DNA from: Vulcanimicrobiota bacterium
GTDB taxonomy: Bacteria; Vulcanimicrobiota; Vulcanimicrobiia; Vulcanimicrobiales; Vulcanimicrobiaceae
Assembly: GCA_013036095.1 (NCBI GenBank)
Contig: JAAXCW010000005.1
Span: forward strand, 124,001 to 188,000
Reading direction: 5' to 3'
DNA: 64,000 nt
Shown here: positions 2,034 to 36,867 of the stretch, piece after piece
Layout of the letters: every line of letters begins with the position of its first letter
Position numbering within the stretch: position 1 is the first letter of the stretch
Notes under the pieces: generated by a model
Told to the model about the DNA's origin: nothing
The model's input: the letters and a program-made list of their open reading frames with translations, nothing else
Database searches by the model: none
Made by a program: the position numbers and the translations under genes

Positions 2034-2079
2034 CGTCCTTCGACGACGCGTGCCTCGCGGCACGCTACTCAGGATGACA
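2034..2079. repeat. palindromic repeat copy 1, intergenic
   Basis: Copy of the window-wide repeat: left end CGTCCTTCGACGACG, central palindrome GTGCCTCGCGGCAC, right end CTACTCAGGATGACA. It separates the convergent genes at 1065-2024 and 2082-3368 and could fold into a hairpin in either transcript. Confidence 0.85.
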
Positions 2080-2081
2080 GG

Positions 2082-3368
2082 CTAAGTCACTACGTCGTAG
2101 ATCAGAGGCGGCGGTTCGACCGGACCGGTTCCGATCTTAAAGGACGCCTCGAGGTTGCGAATGTGCTCCTTGTCCGTGCCGTACATGCGCGCAAGCGGCT
2201 GGCCCGCTTCAACCCGATCGCCGATCTGGGCGATCACGAACAACCCACCGAGCTTGTCGTGCTGCGAGAGGCGCCGGCCGACGTTTCCCAAGTGCACCAC
2301 ATCGATCGAGTGCACGTAACCGCCCTGCGAAGCTTTCACGATGAGTGGCTTGCCGTCGAGTTCCATCCCCTCGAGCGCGCCGCGAGACGCTCCTTGAGCC
2401 TCGAGCATCGCGACGAGCTTTGCGTAGCCGGTTCCGTCGGCCAAGGCTTTAGACGCGAGTTCTTCGCCGCCGGTAACCTCCGAAGCGTCGAGCAGGGCCG
2501 CAACGATCTTTAAAATCAACTTCACCCCTCGACTTCGCTCGGGGTCCTTCGACAAGCTCAGGATGACATCAGAGTGGCGCAAAATATCACGCGCCTCGAC
2601 CATTTCAATGCCGGTGCCGACCGTGCGTCCAAGCGGTTGATGCATGTCGCTCACAAAAGCGATCGCTTTCCGGCCGAAACCCTTGGAAATCTCAACCAAC
2701 CATCGCGCGAGCTCGCGAGCTTGCTCCGGCGACGGCGTGAACGACGCCGGCCCCGTTTTTACGTCATACACGATCGCGTGCGCGCCGCACGCAATCTTTT
2801 TCGAAACGATCGAAGCAGCGATAAGGCCCATCGCCGGAACGGTTCCGGTGCGATCGCGCAGGTTGTAGATGCGTTTGTCGGCAGGAACGAGCGCCTGTGT
2901 CTGCGCCGCTATCGCGCAGCCGATCGATTCCACTTGACGGACGAACGTATCGAGCGACAGGGCGGCGTTGAAACCCGGGACCGCCTCGAGTTTGTCGATG
3001 GTACCGCCGGTATGCCCCAGGGCGCGACCGGAAAGTTTCGCGACATGCGCGCCACATGCCGCGGCCAACGGAACCGCCACGAGTGAAACGATATCGGCGA
3101 CCCCTCCGCTGGAATGCTTATCGACGATAATACCTTTGCCGCGATCGAACGTTACGGTTTCGCCGCTGCGCACCATTGCGTCGGTCAGCGCGTGCGCTTC
3201 CTCGAAGCTCATGCCGCGCCAGACACACGCCATAAACAGCGCGGCGGTCTGCGCTTCGTCGATGCGGCCTTCCATAAAGCCGTCGATGATGCCGTCCCAA
3301 TCGGTGGCCGAAAGGGTGTGGCCGTCGCGCTTGCGTTCGATGCAATGCCGCATCGCCGTCTCGTCCAT
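2082..3368 (-). CDS. deoA: pyrimidine-nucleoside (thymidine) phosphorylase
   Basis: Cleaves thymidine/uridine with phosphate to base and (deoxy)ribose-1-phosphate in nucleoside salvage. The family signature SGRALGHTGGTIDKLE is at 113-128 and the phosphate-binding KHSSGGVAD at 84-92; the small alpha domain, central domain and C-terminal domain are all present in 428 residues. Residues about 267-282 ([14 protein letters not shown]) are not family sequence: they are the in-frame translation of a palindromic repeat, lying between the central domain and the C-terminal part, in a likely surface loop. Whether the enzyme remains active cannot be told. It cannot be separated from a pdp-type enzyme by eye. 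Confidence 0.9.
   Translation of the reverse strand: MDETAMRHCIERKRDGHTLSATDWDGIIDGFMEGRIDEAQTAALFMACVWRGMSFEEAHALTDAMVRSGETVTFDRGKGIIVDKHSSGGVADIVSLVAVPLAAACGAHVAKLSGRALGHTGGTIDKLEAVPGFNAALSLDTFVRQVESIGCAIAAQTQALVPADKRIYNLRDRTGTVPAMGLIAASIVSKKIACGAHAIVYDVKTGPASFTPSPEQARELARWLVEISKGFGRKAIAFVSDMHQPLGRTVGTGIEMVEARDILRHSDVILSLSKDPERSRGVKLILKIVAALLDASEVTGGEELASKALADGTGYAKLVAMLEAQGASRGALEGMELDGKPLIVKASQGGYVHSIDVVHLGNVGRRLSQHDKLGGLFVIAQIGDRVEAGQPLARMYGTDKEHIRNLEASFKIGTGPVEPPPLIYDVVT
2524..2569. repeat. palindromic repeat copy 2, in frame in deoA
   Basis: Contains CCCCTCGACTTCGCTCGGGG followed by TCCTTCGACAAGCTCAGGATGACA. Read on the minus strand it encodes [14 protein letters not shown] within the phosphorylase without breaking the frame. 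Confidence 0.88.
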
Positions 3369-3407
3369 AGCGCCGGATTTCGCGTCGGCCCTAACGAAGC
3401 CCGCCGG

Positions 3408-4688
3408 GTGACGACGTACCCGCCGCCGGACGCACTTTCCGTAATCGCATACGCCGCGTTTTTCGCAGCCGCCGCCGTTATCGCAATGCGACGGCCTATC
3501 TACGCGGTCGCGTTACTCATTGTCGTTCAACCTTTTGCAATTTACGGGGATATCTGGATCACGACGGTCACGCTTCCCAAGGCTACGCTCCTTGGCGTTC
3601 TGCTGGGGCTCGCAACGCATCGCGGATGGCTCCGGCCGTTTGCAGCCGCCGCGCCACGCGCGATTCTTCTTGCCGGTCTTCTTGTGCTGGCCGCCACCAT
3701 GCTGAGCGCCGCGCCCGCGCTCTATCATGCGCCGGTATTGCGCGAATCGCTCAAGGCGATAGAGTACGTCCTGCTCTTCGTCGCAATCGTTTGTGCCTAT
3801 CGTCTCGAGCCTGATCCCGTGCTGGTCCGCAACGCCTGCGTTGCCGTCGTCATCTTCGTTTCGCTCCTTGCGCTCTCACAAGAATTCTTTGGAGCGCCGT
3901 CTAGCTTGCGCATCAATGGTCATCAAATGTTTCGCATAGCCGGACCCATCGAAGGTCCCAATCAACTGGCCGGATACTTCGACGTTGCGATCCCGTTAAT
4001 ATTTGCGCTCGCGATCGAATCGCCGTCACTCGTGATTCAATCTGCGCTCTTTCTTATGGTGCTGGCCGACGTGCTCACCTTTTCGCGCGGCGGCGCGCTC
4101 GGTGCGACAGCCGGCGTGCTTGCCGTCGCACTGACGTTGCGCCACCACATCGCGCGGCCGTTGGCGTACATGGCCGCCGGCCTCGCAACGGGCATCGGAG
4201 CAGCCGGCTTTCTCGCGCACTCATTTGTATTTTTTAGGCTGTATGACTTCAGCGACTCGTCTTATGCCGGCGGAGTCGGCACGCGCTCGAAGTTGTGGCG
4301 CGCAGCGTTTGCATTGTGGCGTCAACATCCAATCCTCGGCGTAGGCGCGGGAAATTTCGAACTCGAGATTCCGCTCACCGGCTTGCGCGGCGTACGCACG
4401 CATGCCAACAGCCTCTATCTGCAGTCGCTCGTTGAAGGCGGGATCCCGCTGTTCGCCGCTACCTTGTGGCTCACGTACGTTTCCGTTGCGACATTTATCC
4501 GAGATCGTTTTCGTTCGCCGTTTATCCTGGCGGCGTTCGCCGGCAGCATTGCGATCGGCTTACACCAGGTCGTCGATCTCCTCGTCTTCTATCCGAAAGT
4601 GGGCGGGTGGTGGTGGATCGTGCTCGGACTCGGAGCGGCGCAACTCGCTGCGGCCCCGGCTCGCGAGCGCGATCCGGTATGCGCTTAG
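3408..4688 (+). CDS. O-antigen ligase / Wzy-type membrane protein
   Basis: Polytopic membrane protein with about ten hydrophobic segments. The C-terminal motif THANSLYLQSLVEGGIPLF and the preceding HPILGVGAGNFE match the Wzy_C/WaaL superfamily of polysaccharide polymerases and ligases. I place the start at GTG 3408, because upstream in-frame sequence is only the reverse of deoA; this gives 426 residues, close to the 436 of its clear paralogue at 53174. The stop overlaps the next gene by 10 bases. It probably acts on lipid-linked glycans at the outer face of the inner membrane. Polymerase versus ligase is undecided. Confidence 0.82.
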   Translation: MTTYPPPDALSVIAYAAFFAAAAVIAMRRPIYAVALLIVVQPFAIYGDIWITTVTLPKATLLGVLLGLATHRGWLRPFAAAAPRAILLAGLLVLAATMLSAAPALYHAPVLRESLKAIEYVLLFVAIVCAYRLEPDPVLVRNACVAVVIFVSLLALSQEFFGAPSSLRINGHQMFRIAGPIEGPNQLAGYFDVAIPLIFALAIESPSLVIQSALFLMVLADVLTFSRGGALGATAGVLAVALTLRHHIARPLAYMAAGLATGIGAAGFLAHSFVFFRLYDFSDSSYAGGVGTRSKLWRAAFALWRQHPILGVGAGNFELEIPLTGLRGVRTHANSLYLQSLVEGGIPLFAATLWLTYVSVATFIRDRFRSPFILAAFAGSIAIGLHQVVDLLVFYPKVGGWWWIVLGLGAAQLAAAPARERDPVCA

Positions 4689-6097
4689 CCTTTCTCGTTC
4701 CGTTAGGTTTTGCGGCCGGCGCCATCGCGTGCCGGCTGCTGCTTTTCAACGCGCCAGCGGCGTTTGCCGTCGACCTCGCGCAACCGCTCGTTGTGGTGAC
4801 GTACTGGGGAAATTTCGGTTTTGCGCTATGGGTCGCGCTCTTCGTTGCAATCGCGATTGCGAGCGTGGGCTATGTGAGCGCGCTCGTCCTTCGACAACGA
4901 GTTCGCTCTGCGAACTCTACTCAGGATGACATACTCCAACGAGTTCGCTCTGCGAACTCTACTCAGGATGACACGTATGGTGCTCCGCTCACAATAATGA
5001 TGTACAGCGCGCTCGCGTGCGCCGCCGCCTTGTGTTTTCCGGTCGTGTTTTCGAGTGATGTCTACGCCTATGCCGGGTACGGATTCATGGCGTTGCACGG
5101 AGTAAATCCGTACGCACATGCCGCCGTTACGATGCGCGACCCGCTGATGGACGCGATTTCGTGGCAGTGGGGAAATCGACCACCGGCTTGCGTCTACGGT
5201 CCAGCCTTCGTCTGGTTCGCGCGAGCGATCGTCGCGATCTTCGCCGGTTTCGGGGCCGCTGCTCCACTCTGGGCGTTTCGAATCAGCGCGTGCGGCCTTC
5301 TCGTGCTCTGCGCTCCGCTTGCGAGCGCGGCGTTCGCGCGGTTCTCTCCTCCGACTCGCGCCGCGGCCGTCGCGGGCATTGCGCTCAATCCCGTGGCAAT
5401 TTGGGCCGCGGCCGAAGGACACAACGATGTCTACCTTATCGCGATCGTACTGGCGGGGATCGCTTTGATCGCGCGCGGTGGTCTCGTTACCGGCGCCGTG
5501 GTCGTAGCATTGTCGGCGCTCGTCAAAGCGCCGGGCTTGCTGGCGGCTGCGTCCGCGCCTTTTTTTGTTGCCGGGCACCGCGCGCGTTCGCGCGTGTTGA
5601 CCGGAGCGCTGTTGGGGCTAGCCGGCGCCGCGGTCGTAGCGTGGCCTGCGCTGCTGCAGCTCTCGCGCAACGCCGGGCACGGAAGCTACTTCCCGCAATT
5701 CTCGCTACAGTACGTCCTGAACGCGGCTTTCGGTCCAGCCGCAGCACTTTCGCTAGCTGCAGCGCTCGTCGCGGCGCTTTCCACCGGCGGGTGTATTCTC
5801 TTAGCGAAAAAGAACCGCGCCGGCGCGCCGCTGCTGGCGCTCGCGTTATGGATCGCCATTCCCAATCCTTATCCCTGGTACGCGCTCTGGATATTGCCCG
5901 CGGCGCTGTTCGCGTGGGAGACTCCGGCCGCTTGGGCGATCGTGGCGCTGGCCTTGAGCTCGGTCTTACGCTATCTCCCCGATGCCACGACGGATTTTCG
6001 AATGGCTGAGAGCATAGCGATCGTTTTCGCCGAGCTTGCAGTGCCGTCGGTTATTTTATTGGCCGGAGCTCGCAACGGGCAACGGCAGAGTCCGTAA
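4679..6097 (+). CDS. GT-C membrane glycosyltransferase (MptB/GT87-like)
   Basis: Multi-pass membrane protein of 472 residues. The extracellular-loop motif SDVYAYAGYGFMALHGVNPY followed by VYGP resembles polyprenol-phosphomannose-dependent mannosyltransferases. The ATG at 4679 overlaps the preceding stop; in-frame sequence farther upstream only shadows that gene. Residues about 69-98 consist of two tandem translations of the palindromic repeat (QRVRSANSTQDD twice) between the second and third hydrophobic segments, so the insertion falls in a loop. The 3' end runs 42 bases into the convergent gene at 6056. Substrate is inferred only. Confidence 0.72.
   Translation: MRLAFLVPLGFAAGAIACRLLLFNAPAAFAVDLAQPLVVVTYWGNFGFALWVALFVAIAIASVGYVSALVLRQRVRSANSTQDDILQRVRSANSTQDDTYGAPLTIMMYSALACAAALCFPVVFSSDVYAYAGYGFMALHGVNPYAHAAVTMRDPLMDAISWQWGNRPPACVYGPAFVWFARAIVAIFAGFGAAAPLWAFRISACGLLVLCAPLASAAFARFSPPTRAAAVAGIALNPVAIWAAAEGHNDVYLIAIVLAGIALIARGGLVTGAVVVALSALVKAPGLLAAASAPFFVAGHRARSRVLTGALLGLAGAAVVAWPALLQLSRNAGHGSYFPQFSLQYVLNAAFGPAAALSLAAALVAALSTGGCILLAKKNRAGAPLLALALWIAIPNPYPWYALWILPAALFAWETPAAWAIVALALSSVLRYLPDATTDFRMAESIAIVFAELAVPSVILLAGARNGQRQSP
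4885..4973. repeat. palindromic repeat copy 3, tandem pair in frame in GT-C gene
   Basis: Two head-to-tail copies (4885-4931 and 4932-4973) of AACGAGTTCGCTCTGCGAAC followed by TCTACTCAGGATGACA. The pair keeps the host reading frame open and codes for a duplicated 12-13-residue peptide. Confidence 0.9.
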
Positions 6098-7588
6098 AGG
6101 AGTCCACCTCGCACCTAGATCGCTCGGCGTTATCGGTGGCGCGTGCCTGAAATAATAAAACGCTGAATCCGGTCCCACATAGACTGTGTCGCCCGGCGAT
6201 AACGGCGGCTGCACGTTCGACGGAGCTGTCCCGTAGTAGACCGTATCGCCGGACGACGGGTCCTTCCGCGGCGACCACGCGAAGCCGGGCGGAAGGAGGG
6301 CGTACGACCAGGAGTTGCTCACGAAATTCTCCGCGCTCGTTCCATTCGAAGCTCTTGCGGCCGCTCGCAGCGACTCGATCGCTTGAATAAGCACGCCGGC
6401 TCCGCCCCGAAAATTGGGTGCCCCCGACGGTTTGTTGGCAAGCGTGTACCATTCAAAGAAATCCCCGTTGCCGATAACCTGGTCGAGCAGCGGCTGAATC
6501 GCATCGTAAGCTTCTCGCAACCTGCCGTGTACGGCGAGCTGCCGCACCATTCTGCCGGCAAACCACGGCCAGATTCCGCCGTTTTGGTAGCAAAACTCAC
6601 AAAGCAGCGGATGCTTGAAAAAACCTAACGGGTATGGCGGAGAGATGCTGCCGGCAATGCTGAATGCGCCGGAGAAGCGTTGCGCGGCGATCATTTGCGC
6701 ATTTGCTTCGGTGATCTCTGCCTCCGAAAGCAAGCCGGCCTCGATGGCGACTGCCGTTCCTCCCTCGTAAAGAATCGCATTTTCGTCAAAGTTTCCGGGA
6801 AACGGCGAGGAACCCAGATAGAGATGCGGGATGAATTTGTCGCGTTTCTCATCCCACAGATAGCGCCTAACGTTGGCGGCGATCGATCTTCTGAGATTCG
6901 ACCAGGTCTGACGGCGCGGGTCGGCCGGCTTCAACAAGCTCGCGAAGTCATCCAACGCAATCACGTACATTGCGTTGGCGTATATCGAGATCGCAGCGTG
7001 TGAGTTGGCATCGAGGGCGCCGCCGGGAACGTCTTCGGCCTGAACGTCACCCCAGTCGATGGTCGTTGCCGCTGTTACCAGTCCGAAGCGCGGGTCGAGC
7101 TTCTCGCGCCTGACGAATTGCAGCGCGGCATCCAAACGATCGGAGACTGCTACCCCGCCGACTTTCTCATCCAAGAACGGAGCGTCGTGAGTGCAAGCAA
7201 CATATTTGAAAACCGCCTGCACCAAAGAACTCTCTTGATCGGATTCGACGGTTCCCTTCGGGTCTACGAGCCCGTCGAGCGGCGTTTTCTTTATACTTTG
7301 CGGCTTGGTCTCTTCGTAAGCGTCGCCGATGCCTCCATCGGCTGTTTGTAATAACAAAAATGGGACGAGGTGGGCTTTAAGATCCGCAGCCGGAAGTACT
7401 TCGCAGCTCGCCGGCAAGAACGTATTGTAGTCGCGAATAAACACGGGCGAATAAATACCGGCGCCGGCGGAAAAACCGTTTCGCAGCAGCGCTTTCGCTT
7501 TGGCTTCAACCACGTCGAGCCGCGAGTCGCTCAGTATCGCCTGCGGCAGCGTCAGCGCCAGCAGCACAAAAACTCGCACGCCGATCAT
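6056..7588 (-). CDS. secreted glycosidase-like (alpha/alpha)6-barrel protein
   Basis: Exported protein of 510 residues with a signal peptide at about 1-20. The body is rich in helices with repeated aromatic and acidic patches: RDYNTFLPAS near 52, QTADGGIGDAY near 82, an ANSHAAISIYANAMYVIAL segment near 200, and NGGIWPWFAGRMV near 345. This pattern resembles six-hairpin glycosidases (trehalase/GH63/GGH relatives), but I cannot name the family. The last 100 residues are a separate, low-similarity tail. It overlaps the next minus-strand gene by 4 bases and the convergent GT-C gene by 42. Confidence 0.55.
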   Translation of the reverse strand: MIGVRVFVLLALTLPQAILSDSRLDVVEAKAKALLRNGFSAGAGIYSPVFIRDYNTFLPASCEVLPAADLKAHLVPFLLLQTADGGIGDAYEETKPQSIKKTPLDGLVDPKGTVESDQESSLVQAVFKYVACTHDAPFLDEKVGGVAVSDRLDAALQFVRREKLDPRFGLVTAATTIDWGDVQAEDVPGGALDANSHAAISIYANAMYVIALDDFASLLKPADPRRQTWSNLRRSIAANVRRYLWDEKRDKFIPHLYLGSSPFPGNFDENAILYEGGTAVAIEAGLLSEAEITEANAQMIAAQRFSGAFSIAGSISPPYPLGFFKHPLLCEFCYQNGGIWPWFAGRMVRQLAVHGRLREAYDAIQPLLDQVIGNGDFFEWYTLANKPSGAPNFRGGAGVLIQAIESLRAAARASNGTSAENFVSNSWSYALLPPGFAWSPRKDPSSGDTVYYGTAPSNVQPPLSPGDTVYVGPDSAFYYFRHAPPITPSDLGARWTPLRTLPLPVASSGQ

Positions 7589-8031
7589 CGCGGACAGAAC
7601 ACGCCCGCGTTCGGGCCTCCCGGAAAACCGTACGCGGGCCCCTGACTCTGCGCTCTCCCGTTTTCCGTAACCGTGTCGTAGATGCGCGCCTGGCGTGCGA
7701 ATTCCGTATTTGCGTCACGCACGAGTGCGGCCACCGCTCTTGCCAAGCGCGCACGCGCCTGAATCTGTGAGCCGCCCATCGCGCGAACCGAAGAACCTTG
7801 AGCGAGGCTCCTCGCAATCGCGTAATAGCCTGCCACGTGCGCGCGTAATCCTGCGTCGTTCGCGGGCGCGGCTTTTTTCATCGTACGAACGGAGAGCATC
7901 AAGCCGGCGCTGGCGGTAAAGGAACGCGAGGTGTGCACAAGGCGCGTCTGCGAGACAGCCGCGGTGAATTCCAGCTGCGGACGAAACGTGCATGGCGTTG
8001 ATGCGGCGACAAAAATGAGCGCGGAAAACAC
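7585..8031 (-). CDS. exported hypothetical protein, DUF922-like
   Basis: Protein of 148 residues with a hydrophobic N-terminus (MFSALIFVAAS) and Cys at 14. The segments HVAGYYAIARSLA and ARQARIYDTVTENGRAQSQ resemble the HExGHFDIAE and QxxYDxxTxHG patterns of DUF922 predicted metalloproteases, but the Glu-His metal ligands of the first motif are not kept, so this would be an inactive relative if the match is right. It is coupled to the glycosidase-like gene by a 4-base overlap. Function unknown. Confidence 0.55.
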   Translation of the reverse strand: MFSALIFVAASTPCTFRPQLEFTAAVSQTRLVHTSRSFTASAGLMLSVRTMKKAAPANDAGLRAHVAGYYAIARSLAQGSSVRAMGGSQIQARARLARAVAALVRDANTEFARQARIYDTVTENGRAQSQGPAYGFPGGPNAGVFCPR

Positions 8032-8078
8032 GAGGCGCCACTCTTTCGAGCGGCGCCTGCCGTCTTACTGTATTGGAC

Positions 8079-8465
8079 TTAAGCTTTGATCGTAATGCGC
8101 TTGGGCTGAGCTTTCGGATGGAGCGCCAGCGTCAGCATCAGCATGCCGTCTTCGACCTTCGCCTCGATTTTTTCGTCATCGACGTCGTCGGGAACGACCA
8201 CGCTGCGCGTGAACGAACGCTTCTCATTTTTTCCTTGAACCGTCAGCACGCCGTCTTCGAGCGTCGCCTCGATTTGGTCCGGCCGGAAGCCGGCCACCGG
8301 AATTTCAACGTCGTAGCCCGTCTCGGTGCGCGTCACTTCCATGCCGGAAAGCTGACCCATCGAGAAGAGATTGCGGAACGGGTCGCCCCACAGGTCTCCG
8401 AGCGGCCGGGCAAGCAAGCTGCCGCCGTTTGCGCCGTTGCGATCGCGGCTAAGAAGATTGCTCAT
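8079..8465 (-). CDS. hsp20: small heat shock protein Hsp20
   Basis: ATP-independent holdase chaperone of 128 residues. A short N-terminal arm leads to an alpha-crystallin domain (about 38-122) with the classic GVLTVQGKNEK and an A-x-x-x-DGMLMLTL strand; the C-terminal RITIKA holds the I-x-I anchoring motif. The start is firm: AGGAGG sits 6 bases before the ATG (complement of 8472-8477). A CIRCE-type inverted repeat lies 22 bases upstream, so HrcA control is expected. Confidence 0.95.
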   Translation of the reverse strand: MSNLLSRDRNGANGGSLLARPLGDLWGDPFRNLFSMGQLSGMEVTRTETGYDVEIPVAGFRPDQIEATLEDGVLTVQGKNEKRSFTRSVVVPDDVDDEKIEAKVEDGMLMLTLALHPKAQPKRITIKA

Positions 8466-8486
8466 AAACTACCTCCTAGCAATATT

Positions 8487-8513
8487 TTAGCACTCTCGAT
8501 CAAGGACTGCTAA
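8487..8513 (-). promoter_or_regulatory. CIRCE operator (HrcA-binding site) of hsp20
   Basis: Plus strand reads TTAGCACTC, 9 bases, GACTGCTAA. The consensus CIRCE is TTAGCACTC-N9-GAGTGCTAA, so the left arm is perfect, the spacer exact and the right arm has one mismatch. On the minus strand a TAAAAT -10-like box overlaps one arm, with a weak TTAGCA -35-like box 18 bases upstream in the other, as expected for repressor occlusion of the promoter. The hrcA gene itself is not in the window. Confidence 0.88.
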
Positions 8514-8555
8514 GCGGAACCTACGGTGCAAGACGGGGGTTACAGCACGGGATGG

Positions 8556-8649
8556 CCCCTCGACAGGCGCCCAAAAGGGCGCTGCTCAGGGTCCTTCGAC
8601 AGGCTCAGGATGACATTTATCGGCTCAGGATGACATTTATCGGCTCAGG

Positions 8650-8655
<6 letters not shown>
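8556..8655. repeat. palindromic repeat copy 4 with tandem 20-base tail
   Basis: A full repeat (CCCCTCGACAGGCGCCC... through CTCAGGATGACA) is followed by two further tandem units of CGGCTCAGGATGACATTTAT. The last unit runs into the start codon of mfd. It fills most of the mfd upstream region, so it lies where a promoter or leader should be. Confidence 0.85.
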
Positions 8656-12228
<3,573 letters not shown>

Positions 12229-13181: not shown

Positions 13182-13194
13182 CCTCTAGCCCACC

Positions 13195-14448
13195 GTGCTG
13201 GTGCGCATCGTCGGGCTCGGGCCGGGCGATCCGGGACTGCTCACGCTGGGAAGTCTCGATGCGCTGCGCGCGTCGCGGCGCGCCGCACTGATGCTCGCCC
13301 CGGCCGAGCTCACTTCATACATCGAATCGCAAGGCGTCGAGATCCTCACCGATCTCGCCGCCGATCCAGCGCTGTTCGTCCGTGGCGCGACCGACGCGGT
13401 TTCCGCGGTCGCTGACGCTATTTCCGATGTCATGGTGAGCTTGTCGAACCACCCCGAGCATGTCATCCTGAGTAGCGCATCTTCGATGCGCGTGTCGAAG
13501 GACGAGGGGACGATCGCAATCGGCATCATCGGAAATCCGCTCTCGGACTTTCCCGGCTTGCCGCAATTCGTGCGGGCGCTCGAAAGCCGCGGGATGCGAA
13601 CGGAGATCGTGCCCGGCGTTCCGCGCGATATACTGTCGGCCGCAATCGCCATGCCGCTCGTGCCGCTGCCCCCCGCTTCCACGCACCATACGTGGAACGA
13701 CTTGATCGAAATCATGGCGCGCCTGCGGCGGTCGTGTCCGTGGGATCGCGAACAAACCCATCGTACACTCGTGCCGTATCTCATAGAAGAGACGTACGAA
13801 GTCGTAGAAGCGATCGAACTGAACGACGAAACCGCGCTGAGCGAAGAACTCGGCGACCTGTTACTGCAAATTGTTTTTCACGCGCAGATCGGCAGCGAAA
13901 CGGGACGCTTCACGAGCGCCGACGTCATCGATGCGCTTTCGAACAAAATGATCCGGCGCCATCCGCACGTTTTCGGCGAAGCCGTCATCGAGGACGTCGA
14001 CGCGCAGTGGAAAAATTGGGAGCGCCTTAAAGCCGAAGAGGCCACCGGGCGCAAACGGCGCAGCCGGCTCGACGGTATTCCCAAACATCTCGGAGCGATG
14101 CAGCGCGGGCAGCGCATGCAAGAGAAAGCGGCCCGCGTGGGTTTCGACTGGCCTGCAGCCTCGCAGATTCTCGATAAGCTCGTCGAAGAGCTGCGCGAAC
14201 TGGCCGAGGCCCGGCGCGCCAAGCAGGACGATCCGCACGTGCGCGAAGAGCTCGGCGACGTCTTCTTCACGCTAGTCAATCTGTCGCGCGCGCTCGGGAT
14301 CGACGCGGAAGCCGCGATGCGCGAGGCGAACGACAAGTTTTACAAACGCTTCAGTTTTATGGAAGCGCGAGCTGCCAAGGAAGGCAAGTCGCTCGCCGAT
14401 ATGACGCTGGACGAACTCGAGGAATTGTGGAAACTGGCAAAGATCTGA
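13195..14448 (+). CDS. mazG: MazG NTP pyrophosphohydrolase with methylase-like N-domain (YabN type)
   Basis: House-cleaning nucleoside triphosphate pyrophosphohydrolase of 417 residues. Residues 1-150 form a tetrapyrrole-methylase-like domain starting [15 protein letters not shown]; residues about 165-410 are two MazG units with the metal-binding [11 protein letters not shown] and [13 protein letters not shown], then [13 protein letters not shown]. The N-domain carries an in-frame repeat insertion (about residues 79-105, MVSLSNHPE... to VSKDEG) shortly before the conserved IGIIGNPL strand. GTG start at 13195. The fused architecture and position near mfd match yabN of Bacillus. Confidence 0.93.
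13429..13510. repeat. palindromic repeat copy 6, in frame in mazG (double unit)
   Basis: Two adjoining units: TGTCATGGTGAGCTTGTCGA...CCCCGAG, then TGTCATCCTGAGTAGCGCAT with central palindrome GCGCATCTTCGATGCGC and GTCGAAGGACGAGGGG. Together they add about 27 residues to the methylase-like domain. Confidence 0.88.
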
Positions 14449-14828: not shown

Positions 14829-15113
14829 CTACGCGGGAAGGCGGCGTTCCACGTCCTCCAGACGAGTTTCGATCCGGCCGACCCGCCGATCCAGGGACCC
14901 GTAGTGAAACTCCAGGCTATCAAAGCGCTTGTCGTGCTCCACGAGCTTTGCGCCAATCTCAACGAAACGCTTATCGTGCTCCGCGAGTGCTGCGTCGACC
15001 CGATCGAAGCGCTGGTAAATACCTTCGAATTGCCCAGCGACGCCACCCTTAAAATCAATCAAAGCGTCCATAAGCTCGCGAGTGGTCGGATCTCTATCCA
15101 TAAATGCTATCAC
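14829..15113 (-). CDS. small coiled-coil protein
   Basis: Ninety-four residues (90 if the ATG at 15101 is used), mostly heptad-patterned: repeated AEHDKRF and VEHDKRF units followed by LDRRVGRIETRLEDVERRL. No export signal or catalytic motif is visible. The regular heptads and lack of a competing gene make it likely real. It sits convergently 3 bases from the Kal-like gene. Function unknown; similar short coiled coils are often annotated only as hypothetical. Confidence 0.55.
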   Translation of the reverse strand: MIAFMDRDPTTRELMDALIDFKGGVAGQFEGIYQRFDRVDAALAEHDKRFVEIGAKLVEHDKRFDSLEFHYGSLDRRVGRIETRLEDVERRLPA

Positions 15114-15162: not shown

Positions 15163-15209
15163 CGTCCTTCGACAACGAGTTCGCACTGCGAACTCTACTC
15201 AGGATGACA
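15163..15209. repeat. palindromic repeat copy 7, intergenic
   Basis: CGTCCTTCGACAACGAGTTC, central GCACTGC, then GAACTCTACTCAGGATGACA. It lies between two minus-strand genes, upstream of the coiled-coil gene and downstream of the MATE gene. Confidence 0.88.
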
Positions 15210-16670: not shown

Positions 16671-16943
16671 ATGGTGCGCGTGCGGCTCGATAAGTTCATG
16701 AAGATCTCGCGCTTGAGCAAGCGGCGCAGCGAGGCGCACGAAGCGCTGGTGCACGGGCGCATCACCAAAGACGGCAGGCCGCTCAAGCCCGGGTACGACG
16801 TGCGCCCGGGCGACGTTCTGGTGATCCATTACGCGACCCGATACGTAACTGTGCGGATCCGGGAAGTGCCGCTGCGCATGACTCCGGCCGTCAAACCTGC
16901 CGCGCTGTACGATGTCGTAGAAGAGCGGCCCGACGATGCGTAA
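16671..16943 (+). CDS. rqcP: S4-domain RNA-binding protein (RqcP/YabO-like)
   Basis: Single S4 domain of 90 residues: RLDKFMKISRLSKRRSEAHE, HGRITKDGRPLKPGYDV and GDVLVIHYATR. This is the layout of RqcP (YabO), which binds obstructed 50S subunits during alanine-tailing quality control. I start at ATG 16671; sequence upstream in frame is antisense to the MATE gene. It overlaps whiA by 8 bases. Other small S4 proteins (Hsp15 type) look similar, but the mazG neighbourhood favours YabO. Confidence 0.8.
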   Translation: MVRVRLDKFMKISRLSKRRSEAHEALVHGRITKDGRPLKPGYDVRPGDVLVIHYATRYVTVRIREVPLRMTPAVKPAALYDVVEERPDDA

Positions 16944-17808
16944 CCTTTCCGCCGACACCAAAGACGCGCTGGCGCGTAACTTTCCACCCGAAGCGCACTG
17001 CCGCGAGGCACTCCTCGCCGGCCTGGTCCTTTACGGCACTCGAACGATCCGCAAGCGCACGTACTTCGTCACGCATCGCAACGCGGTGGCGCGATTGTTT
17101 CTCAAGCTTTCCCCTCGAGACGCGCGCTTCGCGCGCTCCTCGGGGTCCTTCGACAAGCTCAGGATGACAAAACGGGTGCAGCGAATTGCAATCCCCGTCG
17201 AGCCGCAGCGCGCGCGCAAACCGGTGCGGAAGTGCGATCGCGTAATGGAAGCGCGGGCTGCATTTTTGACGTGCGGTTCGGTTTCCGCCGGATCGCAAGG
17301 TTATCATTTGGAATTCGTGCCGCCGGATCGCGAGCGCGCGGAACGGCTCGAATGGATCTTGCGTGCCGTTGCGGGACCGCCCAAAAAAATGCGGCGCAGC
17401 GGGCGCGCAACGCTCTACTATAAAGACTTCGAAGCGATCGTCGAGTTTTTCGGAGTCACCGGCGCACACAATACCGTGCTCGAACTCGAAGGCGTCCACG
17501 CGCTCAAGGAAACGAAGAATCGCATCCACCGATTGGTGAACACCGAGGCCGCAAACCTCGAGCGCGTCGCCGGCGCGGCCGCAGCGCAGCGCGAGATCAT
17601 CGATTACGTGAGCTCCGCGCATGGCCTGCGCCACCTTAGCGCGGCGCTGCGCGAAATCGCCGAACTGCGGCTGAACTATCCCGATGAAAGCTTGGCGGAG
17701 TTGGGCAGGCGCTGCAACCCGCCGATATCAAAGCCGTCTGCCGGCGGCCGCCTCAATGCGCTCGCGCGGCTCGCGCGGCGCCTGCGCGGGGAATCGGCCG
17801 CACGATGA
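16936..17808 (+). CDS. whiA: DNA-binding regulator WhiA
   Basis: Homologue of the WhiA regulator, which combines a degenerate LAGLIDADG homing-endonuclease fold with a C-terminal helix-turn-helix. Recognisable blocks are [14 protein letters not shown] (about 22), [20 protein letters not shown] (about 106), [20 protein letters not shown] (about 195) and the HTH region [20 protein letters not shown]. Residues about 59-78 (ending SFDKLRMT) are an in-frame palindromic repeat within the N-terminal domain. It is translationally coupled to the S4 gene upstream and gap downstream (4-base overlap). In Gram-positives WhiA affects division genes; sepF and divIVA are also in this window. Confidence 0.88.
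17111..17169. repeat. palindromic repeat copy 8, in frame in whiA
   Basis: CCCCTCGAGACGCGCGCTTC, GCGCGCTCCTCGGGG, then TCCTTCGACAAGCTCAGGATGACA. It contains two nested hairpins and is read through as part of WhiA. Confidence 0.88.
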
Positions 17809-20772: not shown

Positions 20773-20780
20773 GCACTACT

Positions 20781-20882
20781 GTCATCCTGAGTAGAGTTCG
20801 CATTGCGAACTCGTTGTCGAAGGATGACATGCTCGCGCACCCTTCGAAGACGCGCGCCCGTGGCGCGCTACTCAGGATGACA
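20781..20882. repeat. palindromic repeat copy 9, double unit between tpiA and gpmI
   Basis: First unit GTCATCCTGAGTAGAGTTCG...CGAACTCGTTGTCGAAGGATGAC (perfect outer ends), second unit CACCCTTCGAAGACGCGCGC...CTACTCAGGATGACA. It occupies the whole tpiA-gpmI gap and may form a strong hairpin that affects mRNA stability or read-through. Confidence 0.9.
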
Positions 20883-27438: not shown

Positions 27439-27845
27439 CCTCTATTGGAGAGAAAGTCGAGGGAACCATCGGCCATCATTGACTCGCGCAAGCCTTGCGA
27501 GTTGACGACAACGCCCGCAGGGACGATCAAGTAAATCGCTTCGGCCAGTTTTTGGATCTTGCCGTCGATCGTGTATGCGACGCCGGAGGTAAAGTCCACC
27601 ACGCGCTGCAGCAGCGAGCGATCCGCGTTTTGGAGATTGACGATCACGACTTGGCGATTACGCAGCGCATCGGCGATTTCCGTAACGTCGCCGAACGCGC
27701 GCGGCGCATAGACGCTGACTTCGGTGCCGCCACGACGGGAGACGCCGCTGAGCGGGACGACGTTGCGCGCACCTTCTTCAGCATAAACGTCGTCATCTTC
27801 GTCGCTCATCGAAAAGAACGAGCCGATCCTGGTAAACATGCTCAT
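27435..27845 (-). CDS. sepF: cell-division protein SepF
   Basis: FtsZ-binding membrane anchor of 136 residues. The N-terminal amphipathic helix MFTRIGSFFSM is followed by an acidic linker (about 14-25) and the SepF fold (about 40-128): RAFGDVTEIADALRNRQVVI, VNLQNADRSLLQRVVDFTSG and GKIQKLAEAIYLIVPAGV. It occurs in lineages using SepF rather than, or beside, FtsA/ZipA. It precedes divIVA with a 4-base overlap. Confidence 0.95.
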   Translation of the reverse strand: MSMFTRIGSFFSMSDEDDDVYAEEGARNVVPLSGVSRRGGTEVSVYAPRAFGDVTEIADALRNRQVVIVNLQNADRSLLQRVVDFTSGVAYTIDGKIQKLAEAIYLIVPAGVVVNSQGLRESMMADGSLDFLSNRG

Positions 27846-27884
27846 GTCAGCCTCACTTTAGCTCTAGCTTCGACGGGCCCACTG

Positions 27885-29371: not shown

Positions 29372-29382
29372 ATGAAGCTTGC

Positions 29383-30111: not shown

Positions 30112-30562
30112 TTCGCTGCAACTGTTCCTGGTCGCGGCGCTCGTCGTCGCGGCGGATCAGCTCAGCAAACGCTACATCGCGACGCACTTCATGCCGGGCG
30201 AGAGCCGGCTGGTTATTCCGAGCTTGCTGCGCTGGACCTACGAGCAAAACCAGCACGGCGCATTTGGGCTTTTCGGCGATTCGCCCGTACTGCTCATCGC
30301 GATGGCGGCCGTCGTGCTTGCGATCTTTTGGTTTTCGTTTCGCGATCAAGCGCGCACCTCGCAGACGGTGCGCATCGCCTTCGGCATGATCCTCGGCGGC
30401 GCGATCGGCAACATCATCGACCGCCTGCATTACCGCTACGTGATCGATTTCATCGACTTTTACAAGATCTGGCCCAACATCTTCGACGTCGCCGACACCT
30501 GCATTACGATCGGCGTCATTTTACTGATCCTCTCAAGCCTTGCGACTCGCCGTCGCAGCTGA
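30089..30562 (+). CDS. lspA: lipoprotein signal peptidase (signal peptidase II)
   Basis: Aspartic protease of 157 residues removing signal peptides from lipidated prolipoproteins. Four hydrophobic segments with VVAADQLSKRYI, the first catalytic region GGAIGNIIDRLHYRYVIDFI and the second FDVADTCITIG are intact. Overlaps ccdA at the front and rluD at the back (23 bases each). Together with lgt it completes lipoprotein maturation for the several lipobox proteins here. Confidence 0.95.
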   Translation: MFRRQRSDSLQLFLVAALVVAADQLSKRYIATHFMPGESRLVIPSLLRWTYEQNQHGAFGLFGDSPVLLIAMAAVVLAIFWFSFRDQARTSQTVRIAFGMILGGAIGNIIDRLHYRYVIDFIDFYKIWPNIFDVADTCITIGVILLILSSLATRRRS

Positions 30563-31433
30563 AGACGCCGGGAAGCGCGCCGATCTCGTCGTCGCGCACC
30601 GCGCCGGATTTCCACGTTCGCTCGTAGCGCAAGCCGCAGCTATCGGCGATCTGCGCGTGAACGGCGAGGCGGTAAAAGGGAGCTACGTTCTATCGGAAGG
30701 CGAGACGATCGAGTGCGAGGTGAAGCCGCGTTCGCCGCTCGTTGTTGAAGCCGAAGCGATCGACGTTCCGATCGTTTATGAAGACGACGACGTCATCGTT
30801 ATCGACAAACCCGCGGGCATGGTCACGCATCCCGCGCACGGCGCTACCAGCGGAACGCTCGTCAACGCGATCCTCGGACACGTGGGGTCGCTTCCTGGTG
30901 ATGCACTGCGTCCCGGATTGGTACACCGGCTCGATCGCGATACCTCCGGCTTGCTGCTCGTCGCGAAAAACGCCGATGCGCTGAGTTTTCTTTCCAAAGG
31001 CATGAAGACGCGTCATATCTCACGCGAATACCTCGGGTTGACGGCCGGTATTCCGGCGCAGCCGAAGGGCACGATCAACGGCGCGATCGGCCGCGACCCG
31101 CACAACCGGCTGAAATACGCCATCACTTCCGGCGGCAAGCCCGCCGTCACGCACTACGCCATCCGCGAACGCTTGCACGACGCCGCCGAGCTGGTCTTCC
31201 GTCTGGAAACCGGACGCACGCACCAAATTCGCGTGCACATGGCCGCGCTCGGCCATCCGCTGATCAACGATCACGTCTACGGGCGAAACGATCCGCGCTT
31301 CGATCTTCCCGGCCAAGCGCTGCACGCGTGGCGGCTAGGTTTTTTGCATCCGCGAACGCGCGAAGCCATCCAGTTCGAAGCCGCGCCGCCACCCGAGTAC
31401 GAAGACGCTAAACGCATCTTGTCATCGTTATAA
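30540..31433 (+). CDS. rluD: RluD/RluA-family 23S rRNA pseudouridine synthase
   Basis: Pseudouridine synthase of 297 residues with an N-terminal S4 domain (KRADLVVAH to VNGEAVKGSY) and a catalytic domain holding the signature HRLDRDTSGLLLVAK with catalytic Asp. Later motifs: FRLETGRTHQIRVHMAALGH and HPRT. TTG start at 30540 within lspA, coupled translation. The lspA-rluD order is widespread in Gram-positives. Confidence 0.94.
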   Translation: MRLAVAAEDAGKRADLVVAHRAGFPRSLVAQAAAIGDLRVNGEAVKGSYVLSEGETIECEVKPRSPLVVEAEAIDVPIVYEDDDVIVIDKPAGMVTHPAHGATSGTLVNAILGHVGSLPGDALRPGLVHRLDRDTSGLLLVAKNADALSFLSKGMKTRHISREYLGLTAGIPAQPKGTINGAIGRDPHNRLKYAITSGGKPAVTHYAIRERLHDAAELVFRLETGRTHQIRVHMAALGHPLINDHVYGRNDPRFDLPGQALHAWRLGFLHPRTREAIQFEAAPPPEYEDAKRILSSL

Positions 31434-31436
31434 TAG

Positions 31437-33385
<1,949 letters not shown>

Positions 33386-33386
33386 T

Positions 33387-33449
33387 TGTCATCCTGAGCT
33401 TGCCGAAGGACCCCGAGCAGGGCGCGAAGCGCCCGAGCCGAGGGGCTCA
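33387..33449. repeat. palindromic repeat copy 11, before the cytochrome gene
   Basis: TGTCATCCTGAGCTTGCCGA, AGGACCCCGAGCAGGGCG, AAGCGCCCGAGCCGAGGGGC. It lies between the dioxygenase and cytochrome genes. Confidence 0.88.
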
Positions 33450-33488
33450 GCATCGGCTATAAGCATCATTCAGTTGCGGAGGTACATC

Positions 33489-33926
33489 GTGCAAAAATTC
33501 GTTCCCCTGCTTCTCGCTTTGGCCGCGCTCAACGCGTGCGCGAATAATTCGGCAAGCACCCAGCGTGCGGCAACTGCGGCGAAAGTCAGCGCCGTCGCCA
33601 ATGGGCGCATAATTTTCCTCACCGGCAAGGACAGCCAAGGATTTCGCATCAACGCACAGCGCCCGCCACTGCGCACATCCTGCGCCGCCTGCCACGGCGC
33701 CGACGGCGCCGGCGGCGTGCATCTGCCCGGCGGAGCCGTCAGCGCAGACCTGCGCCGCAAAGCGCTTGCGGCCGTCAAGCCGGCCTACACGCTCCTCAGT
33801 TTGGAACGCGCGATTTCCACGGGCGTCGACAACCAAGGCAAGACGCTCAATCCGGTTATGCCGCGATGGAAGATGACACCGCGCGATCTTCACGACGTTG
33901 CGGAGTTTGTCCAGACGCTTCACTAG
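33489..33926 (+). CDS. c-type cytochrome lipoprotein
   Basis: Single-heme cytochrome c of 145 residues. The start is GTG 33489 with GGAGG 6 bases upstream (33478-33482); in-frame sequence farther upstream includes the repeat and is rejected. Lipobox LNAC gives lipidated Cys at about 18. The heme motif CAACH (SCAACHGADGAGG) and a distal Met in LNPVMPRWKM are present, fitting a class I fold. CcdA, Lgt and LspA encoded nearby would mature it. Electron partner unknown. Confidence 0.87.
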   Translation: MQKFVPLLLALAALNACANNSASTQRAATAAKVSAVANGRIIFLTGKDSQGFRINAQRPPLRTSCAACHGADGAGGVHLPGGAVSADLRRKALAAVKPAYTLLSLERAISTGVDNQGKTLNPVMPRWKMTPRDLHDVAEFVQTLH

Positions 33927-33981
33927 TGTCATGGTTCGCATTCGCGCGGGCCTCGACTACGCTCGGCCGCCCTTCGTCCTT

Positions 33982-34028
33982 CGTCCTTCGACTACGAGTT
34001 TGCGATGCAAACTCTACTCAGGATGACA
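33982..34028. repeat. palindromic repeat copy 12, between cytochrome and ileS genes
   Basis: CGTCCTTCGACTACGAGTTT, centre GCGATGC, AAACTCTACTCAGGATGACA. Located between the convergent cytochrome and ileS genes, where a bidirectional terminator would be expected. Confidence 0.88.
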
Positions 34029-34047
34029 ACGGCAGCAACGCCCGACG

Positions 34048-36867
34048 CTATGGCAGAGCGGTCACGATCTCCGCGCACGGGGCGCAGAGCGACGGATGCG
34101 CCGGATCGTTTCCGAGCGGTAAGTATTTCCAGCAGCGTTTGCATTTCGAGCCGCTGGCCGGCTGGAGGTAGACGCGGCGCTCCTCACCATCGCCCACAAT
34201 GCGTTCGACCTGCGAAACCACGAGCGCTTCCCGCAATCCATCGCCCAGCGCGGTCACGTCGTTCAACATCGATTCGGGAACCACCACGCTGCCCGCGTCG
34301 GTCTCAAAGTCGCGCGGCGATTCGTTAGCGGCCACTTGCTGGCGCAACTCTTTGAGGAGCTGCCACAATGCTGCGGAGCTCTCGCCGGCGGGACGGCGTG
34401 ATTCGAACGAGAGATCGAAGACACTGTCGCTGCGGCGCAGTTCCGGCGGAATTGCCTGCCACGCTTCTTCGGCCGTAAACGAAAGCAACGGAGCCAGCAC
34501 CGTCAGCACCCGTTGCAAGATGTAGAAAAGCGCGCTCTGCGCGCTGCGCCGGCGCGATGCTCCGGCGGCGCTCGAATAGAGCCGGTCTTTTAGCGCGTCG
34601 AAATAAAAACTCGACAGATCGTCGCCTTCGAAACGCACGATCTCCAAATAGGCGCCGTGCAAATCGTAGTCGCGCAACGATTCAAGGACCGTGACCGTCC
34701 AGCGATCGACTTGTTCGCACGCCAGCGCGTCGAACGGCTCCATGTTCTCGCGCGCTACGAGGTCGGCCGGAGCCATGTCGCCGAGGTTGCTCACCATGAA
34801 CCGAAGGCGGTTGCGGATATTGCGGTAGACGCGGCTGACTTGTTCGATCACGTGCGGTCCGAAGCGCACGTCGTCGACGAATTCCACCGAAGCCGCCCAC
34901 AGACGCAGCACGTCTGCACCCCATTTTTGCATCGCCTCTTGCGCATCGATGCCGGTGCCGAGCGACTTGCTCATCGGACGGCCGCTCTCGTCGTTCACCC
35001 AACCGTTCTTTACCACGTGTTTATAAGGCGGCGCGCCTTTGACCGCCGTCGCCGTCACGATCGAACTGCGGAACCAGCCGCGATACTGATCGCCGCCTTC
35101 AAGAACGAGGTCGGAGGGCCAGGGCAAGCCGTTCTTGCCCAGCACCGCCAAATGTGTGACGCCCGATTCGAACCAGATGTCTACGATGTTCTTTTCTTTT
35201 TCGAAGCTCGTGCCGCGGCACTTGGAGCAGGCAAAGTTCGGCGGCAGAAAACGGTCGACCGGGTCGCTCCACCACGCGTTGGCGCCGCGTTCGCGAAAGA
35301 CGCCGGCGGTTACGCGTGCGACTTCCGGATCGAGGATCGACTCGCCACATGCTTTGCAAACCACCGCGGGAATTGGCGTTCCCCACGTGCGCTGTCGCGA
35401 GATGCACCACTCCGGATGCGTCTCGAGCATCTGCGCGATGCGCTCTTGCCCCCAGGCCGGCGTCCATTGGACGCTGCGGATGTTTTCGATGGTGCGCGCC
35501 CGCAACCGGTTTTGATCCATTGCGATGAACCACTGCGCGGTCGCCCGGAAAATCACTGGGTTGTGACAGCGCCAGCAGTGCGGATAGCTGTGTTCGAAGT
35601 CGGCATAATCCCAAAGCGCACCGCTTGCCCGCAAGTCTTCGACAATCTTCGGGTTGGCTTTCCAAATGTGCATGCCGGCGTACGGTCCTGCTTCGGCCAT
35701 AAAGATACCGCGCGAGTCGACCGGGTTGACGATCGGCAGATTGTATTTCACGCCGGTTTCAAAGTCGTCGGCTCCGTGGCCGGGCGCCGTATGCACCGCG
35801 CCGGTGCCGGTTTCCATGTCGACGTAATCCGCCAGCACGATCGGCGCGTCGCGATCCATGAACGGATGACGGACGGTGAGCCCTTCTAACGCGCTTCCCT
35901 TCGCGCCGCCGATTCTGCGGGCGCCTGCAAAGCGATCGCCTAACGTTTTTTCCGCGAGCGCATCTGCAACGATCACCGCTTCATCGCCGACCGCGTACAA
36001 ACCATATTCCGCATCCGGGCGCAGCGCGATCGCCGCATTTGCCGGCAGCGTCCACGGCGTCGTGGTCCAGATGAGGATGGAAACTTTCGGTGGCCCCTCG
36101 ACTGCCGCACCTTCGGTGCGTTGCTCGGGGTGGTTCGACAGGCTCACCATGACACTAGAGGCCACCATGACGATGAGAAGCGCGTCCCGTTGCGCATCGT
36201 TGGCCGTGAAGCGTACCGTGACCGACGGCGAGACCCGCGGTTTGTATTCGATCTCCGCTTCGGCGAGCGCGGTTTCGTCGTGAATGCACCAGAGTGTCGA
36301 GCGCAGGCCCTTGTAGATCTGGTTTTTCGACGCGAGCGTCCCCAGCGTTTCGACGATCGTCACTTCGAATTCGGGATCGATCGTGCGGTACGGATGTTGC
36401 CAGTCGCCGAAGTTTCCCATGCGCATGCGCACCGAGCGTTGGCGGTCGAGCCAATAGAGCGCGCGCTCTTTGCATTTCTCGCGTAGCTCGACGGGATCGA
36501 CGTCGTGAAAGTCTTTGATCTTCAAATGTTTGAGCGTCTCGAGTTCGATCGGCAAGCCGTGCATGTCCCACCCCGGCACGAACTTCGCCCAGCGCGAATC
36601 GAGCAGCGCGATCTTCACGAAGATATCTTTCAGGACCATGTTCAGGAAGTGGCCCATATGCAGCTCGCCGTTTGCGTACGGCGGCCCGTCGTGCAAGATC
36701 CACGGCGCATTGCGCGCGTTGCGTTCGAGCCGCCGCTCATAGGTGCGCCGCTCTTCCCACCAAGCGACGCGGTCGGGTTCCCGCTTCGGCAGATCGGCCT
36801 TCATCGGAAAATCGGTCTTGGGCAGGTTCAGCGTCTCGCGATAATCGCGTTCGGGCGGATTACTCAC
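34048..36867 (-). CDS. ileS: isoleucyl-tRNA synthetase
   Basis: Class I synthetase charging tRNA-Ile, 939 residues from GTG 36867 (starting SNPPERDYRETLNLPKTDFP). HIGH-type PPYANGELHMGH, the editing-domain IWTTTPWTLPANAAIAL, catalytic WFRSSI and a KMSKS variant RPMSKSLG are visible; the C-terminal zinc region CKRCWKYL...CAPC is complete. Residues about 238-258 ([10 protein letters not shown]...) are an in-frame palindromic repeat at the front of the editing (CP1) domain, just before VSILIWTTTPWT. The start overlaps csaB by 8 bases. No T-box leader is seen. Confidence 0.96.
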   Translation of the reverse strand: MSNPPERDYRETLNLPKTDFPMKADLPKREPDRVAWWEERRTYERRLERNARNAPWILHDGPPYANGELHMGHFLNMVLKDIFVKIALLDSRWAKFVPGWDMHGLPIELETLKHLKIKDFHDVDPVELREKCKERALYWLDRQRSVRMRMGNFGDWQHPYRTIDPEFEVTIVETLGTLASKNQIYKGLRSTLWCIHDETALAEAEIEYKPRVSPSVTVRFTANDAQRDALLIVMVASSVMVSLSNHPEQRTEGAAVEGPPKVSILIWTTTPWTLPANAAIALRPDAEYGLYAVGDEAVIVADALAEKTLGDRFAGARRIGGAKGSALEGLTVRHPFMDRDAPIVLADYVDMETGTGAVHTAPGHGADDFETGVKYNLPIVNPVDSRGIFMAEAGPYAGMHIWKANPKIVEDLRASGALWDYADFEHSYPHCWRCHNPVIFRATAQWFIAMDQNRLRARTIENIRSVQWTPAWGQERIAQMLETHPEWCISRQRTWGTPIPAVVCKACGESILDPEVARVTAGVFRERGANAWWSDPVDRFLPPNFACSKCRGTSFEKEKNIVDIWFESGVTHLAVLGKNGLPWPSDLVLEGGDQYRGWFRSSIVTATAVKGAPPYKHVVKNGWVNDESGRPMSKSLGTGIDAQEAMQKWGADVLRLWAASVEFVDDVRFGPHVIEQVSRVYRNIRNRLRFMVSNLGDMAPADLVARENMEPFDALACEQVDRWTVTVLESLRDYDLHGAYLEIVRFEGDDLSSFYFDALKDRLYSSAAGASRRRSAQSALFYILQRVLTVLAPLLSFTAEEAWQAIPPELRRSDSVFDLSFESRRPAGESSAALWQLLKELRQQVAANESPRDFETDAGSVVVPESMLNDVTALGDGLREALVVSQVERIVGDGEERRVYLQPASGSKCKRCWKYLPLGNDPAHPSLCAPCAEIVTALP
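36093..36154. repeat. palindromic repeat copy 13, in frame in ileS
   Basis: CCCCTCGACTGCCGCACCTT, CGGTGCGTTGCTCGGGG, TGGTTCGACAGGCTCACCATGACA. Translated on the minus strand it gives [20 protein letters not shown]. Confidence 0.88.

Follow-up and report, generated by a model that had tools for sequence, protein, structure and literature searches.

TGTC-tagged palindromic repeats in Vulcanimicrobiaceae and a GIY-YIG nuclease gene as their possible mobiliser

A 64,000-nucleotide stretch of the genome of a Vulcanimicrobiota bacterium (contig JAAXCW010000005.1, positions 124,001 to 188,000; hereafter the window) carries palindromic elements with a TGTCAT tag at 13 loci, all of them at positions 2034–36154 (Table 1), as a preliminary description of the same DNA had claimed. 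Their abundance is far above chance: 14 exact copies of GTCATCCTGAG and one with a single mismatch lie in the window, where 0.68 occurrences were expected and 100 shuffles gave a maximum of 3, and the 20-mer TTCGACAAGCTCAGGATGAC has eight matches with up to three mismatches against 0.03 expected. A second head type, GTCATGGTGAG, gives further copies. In related genomes, inverted copies of these repeats surround a gene for a single-domain GIY-YIG endonuclease. The sequence comparisons described below make it probable, in our estimation, that this nuclease mobilises the repeats, both as its own unit and, in trans, as solo elements.

The anatomy of the element was analysed in 459 kb of the same genome, comprising the window and 20 other stretches, most of which were picked for holding copies. 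GTCAT is present in every head by the definition of the search, and its excess over chance was measured separately. The variable dinucleotide of the 121 heads was CC in 92, GG in 24, CG in four, and GA in one, and T preceded 114 of the 116 CC and GG heads, giving the TGTC tag. Every head contains AT, and the two bases after it usually pair with the tail, but many tails have the sequence AAGGAC and the stem is broken by GAG/TCGA. The head dinucleotide was complementary to its tail partner in 84 of 89 tailed copies of this genome, 69 of 74 in G006, 65 of 68 in G002, and 30 of 32 in G023. The stem changes are paired: CC:GG and GG:CC both occur in the genus, and G002 has six CG:CG copies. Heads lacking a tail before the next head or within reach numbered 29 of 118, 24 of 98, 32 of 100, and 7 of 39 in these four genomes, respectively. 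Between GAG and TCGA, the core was 6 nt or shorter in 33 of 91 complete copies and a longer hairpin in 58. A short loop or a longer core thus lies between conserved ends, in agreement with the earlier claim of shared ends and variable palindromic centres. Identical core families were found with different heads. Many short-loop copies then carry a second module, CCCCGAG-core-TCGAGGGG, and the sequence downstream of the tails is mostly CGAGG, CGGCCGAG, or CCCCGAG. Head, core, and second-module types showed no clustering between neighbouring copies (p 0.16–0.40); neighbours were alike in strand only (p 0.002; within contigs 0.036).

Six of the loci lie in frame inside genes, namely deoA, a GT-C-like gene, mfd, mazG, whiA, and ileS, as previously described. 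Pfam backs five of these six names; for the sixth, the GT-C-like protein, it yields no match at 0.001, and the label comes from the preliminary description. Alignments with up to five congeners placed the repeat-coded residues at fixed slots in all six proteins. The residues are missing in distant genera (three for DeoA, four for the GT-C-like protein, and five each for Mfd, MazG, and WhiA; none was available for IleS) and also in some congeners, namely G001 (DeoA, GT-C-like, and Mfd), G006 (DeoA), and G002 (GT-C-like). Clean insertion, which such alignments had been expected to reveal, was not found throughout. In WhiA, the native residues of the distant genera are gone as well, and the contents of a slot vary: the IleS element is of the GG type in this genome and of the CC type in G006 and G001, and the GT-C-like slot is read in differing frames across species. 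The distant genera also differ in length at the Mfd slot, which makes this a tolerant loop in any case. Slots shared between species with changed contents are not new, since the accessible parts of earlier reports describe them for orthologues holding different types of the Rickettsia palindromic elements (RPEs) RPE-4/6/7 (PMC3767692) and for recB of Xanthomonas (PMC3733652).

The 28 in-gene heads of the 459-kb sample are spread over the four open reading frames (4, 15, 7, and 2 heads), and none uses either of the two stop-bearing frames. This distribution argues, as had been proposed from the differing peptides, that the DNA spreads and not the peptide. In-gene copies occur in both orientations. 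The sample contains 89 clusters, of which 21 sit well within called genes and 37 are centred in one; as genes called by a simple codon-usage script make up 86–97% of each source, genes are evidently avoided. Elements had also been proposed to supply the apparent starts of mfd and tgt. The ATG of the mfd reading frame (8650) indeed lies inside a head copy. For tgt, the GTG is part of the head-like sequence GTCATCGTGA, which G006 and G001 retain at the same place without an element there, indicating that the element extends this gene at its 5' end and does not create its start.

The whole genome (2.58 Mb, 19 contigs) holds 150 exact copies of GTCATCCTGAG, against one of its reversed control. No copy was found in the window after 36154, as previously reported; the unevenness read from this means little, because at about one copy per 17 kb a 28-kb gap is unremarkable. 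Elsewhere, GTCATCCTGAG occurs 30–120 times in six congeners, 97 times in G023, 41 in G011, 31 in G008, and 22 in G024, and 0–10 times in the other 30 of the 41 genomes searched. Apart from G022, the genomes with the repeat-associated nuclease gene described below are the 11 with 22–150 copies. Thirty-four sites of this genome could be mapped to G006, where 25 were occupied, all 25 in the same orientation; 40 could be mapped to G002, where 26 were occupied and the orientation set was the same in 12.

The nuclease gene was recognised in G023, where a small open reading frame lies between + and − head arrays, 60 kb into contig C1 (69137–69355). It was taken to encode a GIY-YIG protein, and a PF01541 match at this place confirmed the assignment. 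In a PF01541 search of the 41 genomes, several matches adjoined paired heads. The gene of the window's own genome lies outside the window (contig C12, 25307–25528; E 3.4e-16), and its G006 relative (L281) has heads on both sides. A locus was counted as flanked when inward-facing heads lay within 310 bp of the GIY-YIG domain. At the best PF01541 locus of each of 12 repeat-bearing genomes (G000, the window's own, to G006, G008, G011, G022, G023, and G024), inward heads were found on both sides in nine and on at least one side in all 12. When L281 and L282, picked with knowledge of nearby heads, are added, the numbers become 11 and 14 of 14. The profile also matched GIY-YIG loci elsewhere in the phylum, 28 in all (25 short and 3 long), and none of these had any head in this range. 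Counted by genus, the match stands at 6 of 6 against 0 of 23. The local profile used here was made from the short proteins of head-adjoining loci and matched 69 of 80 loci; it was trained partly on flanked genes, and its scores lean to them. Eight UvrC-type control loci gave no profile match and were left unscored. Terminal inverted repeats around the nuclease gene extend over 57 bp at 98% identity in G006 and 78 bp at 94% in an Adhaeribacter genome (G054), and are short (18 columns or fewer) or absent at L262, L281, L301, and L318.

Y7, Y17, G19, R27, and E65 are invariant in all 11 aligned nuclease proteins; we take them to be the GIY-YIG active-site residues (Tyr, Tyr-x-Gly, Arg, and Glu). 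NCBIfam held no fitting name for four of the proteins. In a tree of 66 rows and 93 columns, with many weak forks, one group of 20 rows (support 85/82) contains 14 flanked and six partly flanked loci, and a housekeeping-like group (support 99/98) has 29 of its 30 rows unflanked. The rest consists of 13 mixed rows (five flanked, two partly, and six not) and three rows elsewhere. Two individual copies are unusual: in G024 (L252), the nuclease reading frame extends into a repeat-coded peptide tail derived from tandem heads, and the copy at L262 (G004) has an internal stop.

One locus of the window exists in three states. The site 33387–33446 is empty in G001 and G002, holds one element in the window, and holds the GIY-YIG gene in G004, G005, and G006. 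In G006, the copies around the nuclease gene are 98.2 and 96.6% identical to the window element and, judged by eye, the left junction agrees; the core of the flanking copies differs in G005. The neighbouring cytochrome-c segment, up to the inverted element at 33981–34028, is flipped in the three genomes with the nuclease gene and not in G001 or G002.

The type of head beside the gene also agreed with the type of the genome-wide repeats in one blind test. The head beside the G022 nuclease gene is GTCACGCTGAG, a sequence unsearched until then; G022 has 129 copies, and the 40 other genomes have 0–10 each. In G041, the flank type, GTCATTGCGAG, is the commonest head, accounting for 4 of 11 in 115 kb. 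G056 was uninformative, its single stretch being the one that holds the nuclease gene.

Similar arrangements of nuclease and repeat were found in Bacteroidota, Verrucomicrobiota, and Alphaproteobacteria. The 20-mer TTCGACAAGCTCAGGATGAC occurs in at least 117 stretches, and the 80 listed include Bacteroidota, Verrucomicrobia, Eremiobacterota, and others. Among 24 genomes selected on the basis of such matches, 8 of 27 profile hits were inward-flanked on both sides; among 20 further loci, 5 of 23 hits were flanked in this manner and 10 of 23 had any head. Seven plasmid records were picked by the protein alone, regardless of repeats, and three of the seven loci, all alphaproteobacterial, lie between inverted palindromes. 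Two are Methylobacterium genes between CCTCATCCTGAGG-type palindromes that agree in 51 of 60 and in 92 of 118 columns, the third is a Sphingomonas gene between 24-column repeats, and each of the three beat the best of 60 shuffles. Fifteen phage records were also matched.

We favour the view that the repeats are non-autonomous and that their autonomous form is a unit of about 450 bp, in which two inverted copies surround the single-domain GIY-YIG gene. The nuclease would recognise the hairpin end TGTCATNNTGAG and nick it, at the TGTCAT end, when the palindrome is extruded or single-stranded; nicking would move or copy the gene-bearing unit and also, acting in trans, the solo elements. A copy that lands in a gene would be retained only if it is in frame and in a tolerant stretch, and retained copies would persist while their contents are rearranged. 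The switching of arms, the tandem heads, and the changes of orientation at shared slots may be what palindromes ordinarily undergo during replication, or may come from repeated insertion. At 8595–8655 and at L174, L175, and L046, truncated heads stand in tandem together with a little flanking sequence, in units of about 14–33 bp, which suggests slippage at the hairpin. Nested insertion behind the tandem heads was rejected, as judged by eye, since the tails do not multiply along with the heads.

Several observations weigh against the view that the nuclease mobilises the repeats. Neither nuclease activity nor element movement has been observed, and no clear target-site duplication was seen by eye at the aligned empty sites. 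The gene of the window's own genome has exact heads on one side only and a degenerate head on the other. The seven genomes of the genus are non-independent through shared ancestry, and the flanked group of the tree, with its support of 85/82, rests on 93 columns. G054 has no head of its flank type in 120 kb, and G044 was rejected as a second case of agreement of flank and genome: its commonest head is of the flank type (10 of 33), but these copies come mostly from the gene-holding stretch, and two of six agree elsewhere. Outside the phylum many GIY-YIG genes are unflanked, in genomes picked for holding the repeat. Four of the seven plasmid loci, including yazA of Bacillus, have no flanking palindromes, and none of 12 loci on viral contigs is flanked.

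One alternative is that the repeats are ordinary RPE- or CGTC-type repeats left by an old burst and that the GIY-YIG gene is a passenger between copies with no role in their spread. Repeats lie around many intergenic spaces, and in a control set of 1522 called genes from 85 sources, four were flanked; one of them is the G006 nuclease gene and one the cytochrome-c gene of the window, so that 3 of 1521 genes other than the nuclease are also flanked on both sides. The lack of observed movement fits this explanation too. However, the nuclease gene is flanked far more often than other genes, the arrangement is repeated at a number of separate loci in the genus as well as in other phyla, and the repeat of G022 was predicted from the flank type. 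We therefore consider a passenger unlikely, while giving it more weight than any other alternative.

A further possibility is that the nuclease is a host-side controller, which trims or removes extruded palindromes or restrains their spread, and that selection keeps its gene nearby. SLX1 is a structure-specific nuclease, and the family matches, by sequence, the UPF0213 structures (PDB 1zg2 and 1ywl) and weakly SLX1 (E 0.012 and above); within subgroups of the genus, the gene is retained by common descent. Yet genomes without the gene hold few repeats, not more, and the inverted terminal copies resemble the ends of a mobile unit, which makes such a role rather improbable. It is very unlikely that an IS200/IS605-type transposase, such as the REP-associated tyrosine transposases (RAYTs), or another transposase moves the repeats in trans. 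Hairpins with a short tag do resemble the ends of repetitive extragenic palindromes (REPs), and hairpins moved by a RAYT are a known precedent in the accessible parts of the literature (PMC3116915, PMC3733652), but the tag here is TGTC, not GTAG, and a search for Y1_Tnp, the one transposase family covered, found it in none of the 19 genomes of the family (13 + 6) and in two of four genomes of the same class outside it; a RAYT was rejected as the mover accordingly.

That the repeats are orientation-dependent signals of chromosome architecture or of RNA, and not mobile elements, is scarcely credible: clusters lie on the C-rich strand by 62 to 2 where |GC skew| exceeds 0.03, but these stretches come almost only from two congeners sharing most sites, the balance is 27 to 41 in G002 (26 to 9 overall in G023), in-gene copies occur in either orientation, and none of the repeats attains the gathering score of an Rfam family. 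A polarity rule based on the replication strand was rejected on the same ground, nearly all of the 62 to 2 being contributed by the two congeners with their shared sites. The heads are nearly one-stranded for hundreds of kilobases on contigs C1 and C2 of the window's genome and on C8, C7, and C4 of G006, independently of gene direction; this bias was not seen in the orthologous region of G002. C1:20001–80000 and C2:222000–310000 of the window's genome correspond to one and the same part of contig C1 of G002, which may reflect a duplication or a mixed bin (listed contamination 6.6%).

The repeats are another member of the REP and RPE sort, and what is new is their coupling to a GIY-YIG gene. 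As far as the accessible sections of the 2013 survey by Di Nocera, De Gregorio, and Rocco (PMC3733652) describe them, CGTC-tagged REPs are short palindromes that include in-gene copies, their tag may also read TGTC or CCTC and is followed by AT, and no dedicated transposase was found for them. The elements described here share the short palindrome, the TGTC tag with AT, and the in-gene copies. They differ in that the loop is not 4–5 nt, most copies having longer variable cores, and in the second module, the absence of a CCA tail, and the GIY-YIG gene flanked by repeats. The stem of CGTC-tagged REPs has 8–9 bp with a paired AT; here the AT is kept, two bases pair, and GAG/TCGA breaks the stem. 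The parallel with RPEs drawn in the preliminary description holds by description. RPE-4/6/7 typically have an ATGAC/GTCAT end, and in-frame copies and shared slots with changed types are reported (PMC3767692, in its accessible sections); the present elements have the same end, lie in frame in open reading frames, and are missing from the more distant genera compared. They belong to another phylum and are shorter, and those sections name no mover for RPEs. With REPs and REPINs (paired REPs forming hairpins) and their RAYT, as far as PMC3116915 could be consulted, they have in common hairpin repeats, one gene flanked by them, and many solo copies; the gene encodes a GIY-YIG nuclease and not a Y1 tyrosine transposase, and the tag differs.

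The nuclease has the same domain and size as UPF0213/YazA-type single-domain GIY-YIG proteins. It is unlike their housekeeping-like group, which has fixed neighbours (the Bacillus gene sits between trmNF and rsmI) and no flanked member among the 28 loci of the phylum. The position of the gene between terminal inverted repeats in G006 and G054 is like that of an insertion sequence with derived miniature inverted-repeat transposable elements. GIY-YIG homing endonucleases and Penelope elements are mobile elements driven by a GIY-YIG nuclease; unlike the system proposed here, they move introns, genes, or retroelements, not small hairpins. Neither a coupling of a GIY-YIG gene to palindromic repeats nor such repeats in Eremiobacterota was found in the literature searched, which lay outside preprints and most subscription journals.

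The proposal that the GIY-YIG nuclease mobilises the repeats bears on a question that the CGTC-repeat survey, in its accessible sections, left open, namely the mover (PMC3733652), and the flanked gene could be this missing engine. It could be extended to the view that palindromic repeats with CGTC, TGTC, or CCTC tags owe their mobility, across bacterial phyla, to single-domain GIY-YIG nucleases, as a class of mobile element in which such an enzyme takes the place of a Y1 or DDE transposase, each enzyme being matched to its own hairpin and the elements being capable of writing short peptides into housekeeping proteins; we would put the chances of this broader view at about even. The gene flanked by repeats, together with a flank sequence that predicted the type of one genome, makes the proposal testable in culturable hosts such as Pedobacter and Methylobacterium. 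If correct, it would place another nuclease superfamily among the drivers of small mobile hairpins, and would give a natural origin for loops inserted in frame into essential enzymes.

Table 1. Palindromic elements and associated features of the window
Feature	Position	Strand	Context
Element, CC head, hairpin core	2034..2079	-	Intergenic; missing from all 5 congeners compared
Element, CC head and CCCCGAG module	2525..2568	-	In frame in deoA (2082-3368, -)
Two tandem elements, CC heads	4885..4973	-	In frame in GT-C-like gene (4679-6097, +)
Element, three tandem CC heads	8556..8655	-	Directly before and across the mfd start
Element, GG head	10008..10066	-	In frame in mfd (8650-12228, +)
GG element with a complete CC element within its second module	13428..13512	+	In frame in mazG (13195-14448, +)
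Element, CC head, hairpin core	15164..15209	-	Intergenic
Element, CC head	17111..17169	-	In frame in whiA (16936-17808, +)
Full-length element, TGTCATCCT at both ends	20780..20828	+	Upstream of gpmI-like gene
Second element at the same place, opposite strand	20846..20882	-	Beside the 20780..20828 element
Tandem degenerate heads and element	31416..31531	+	5' end of tgt (31461-32615, +); extra residues after GTG
Solo element	33387..33446	+	GIY-YIG nuclease gene here in G004, G005, G006; empty in G001, G002
Cytochrome-c gene segment between inverted elements	33439..33919		Inverted in G004, G005, G006; not in G001, G002
Element, CC head, inverted relative to the 33387 element	33981..34028	-	
Element, GG head	36093..36154	-	In frame in ileS (34048-36867, -)

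Two other features of the window were recorded. A tRNA gene at 40968–41040 is its sole Rfam match, and two 42-nt direct repeats, 71% alike, lie inside a short gene at 14923–15006.

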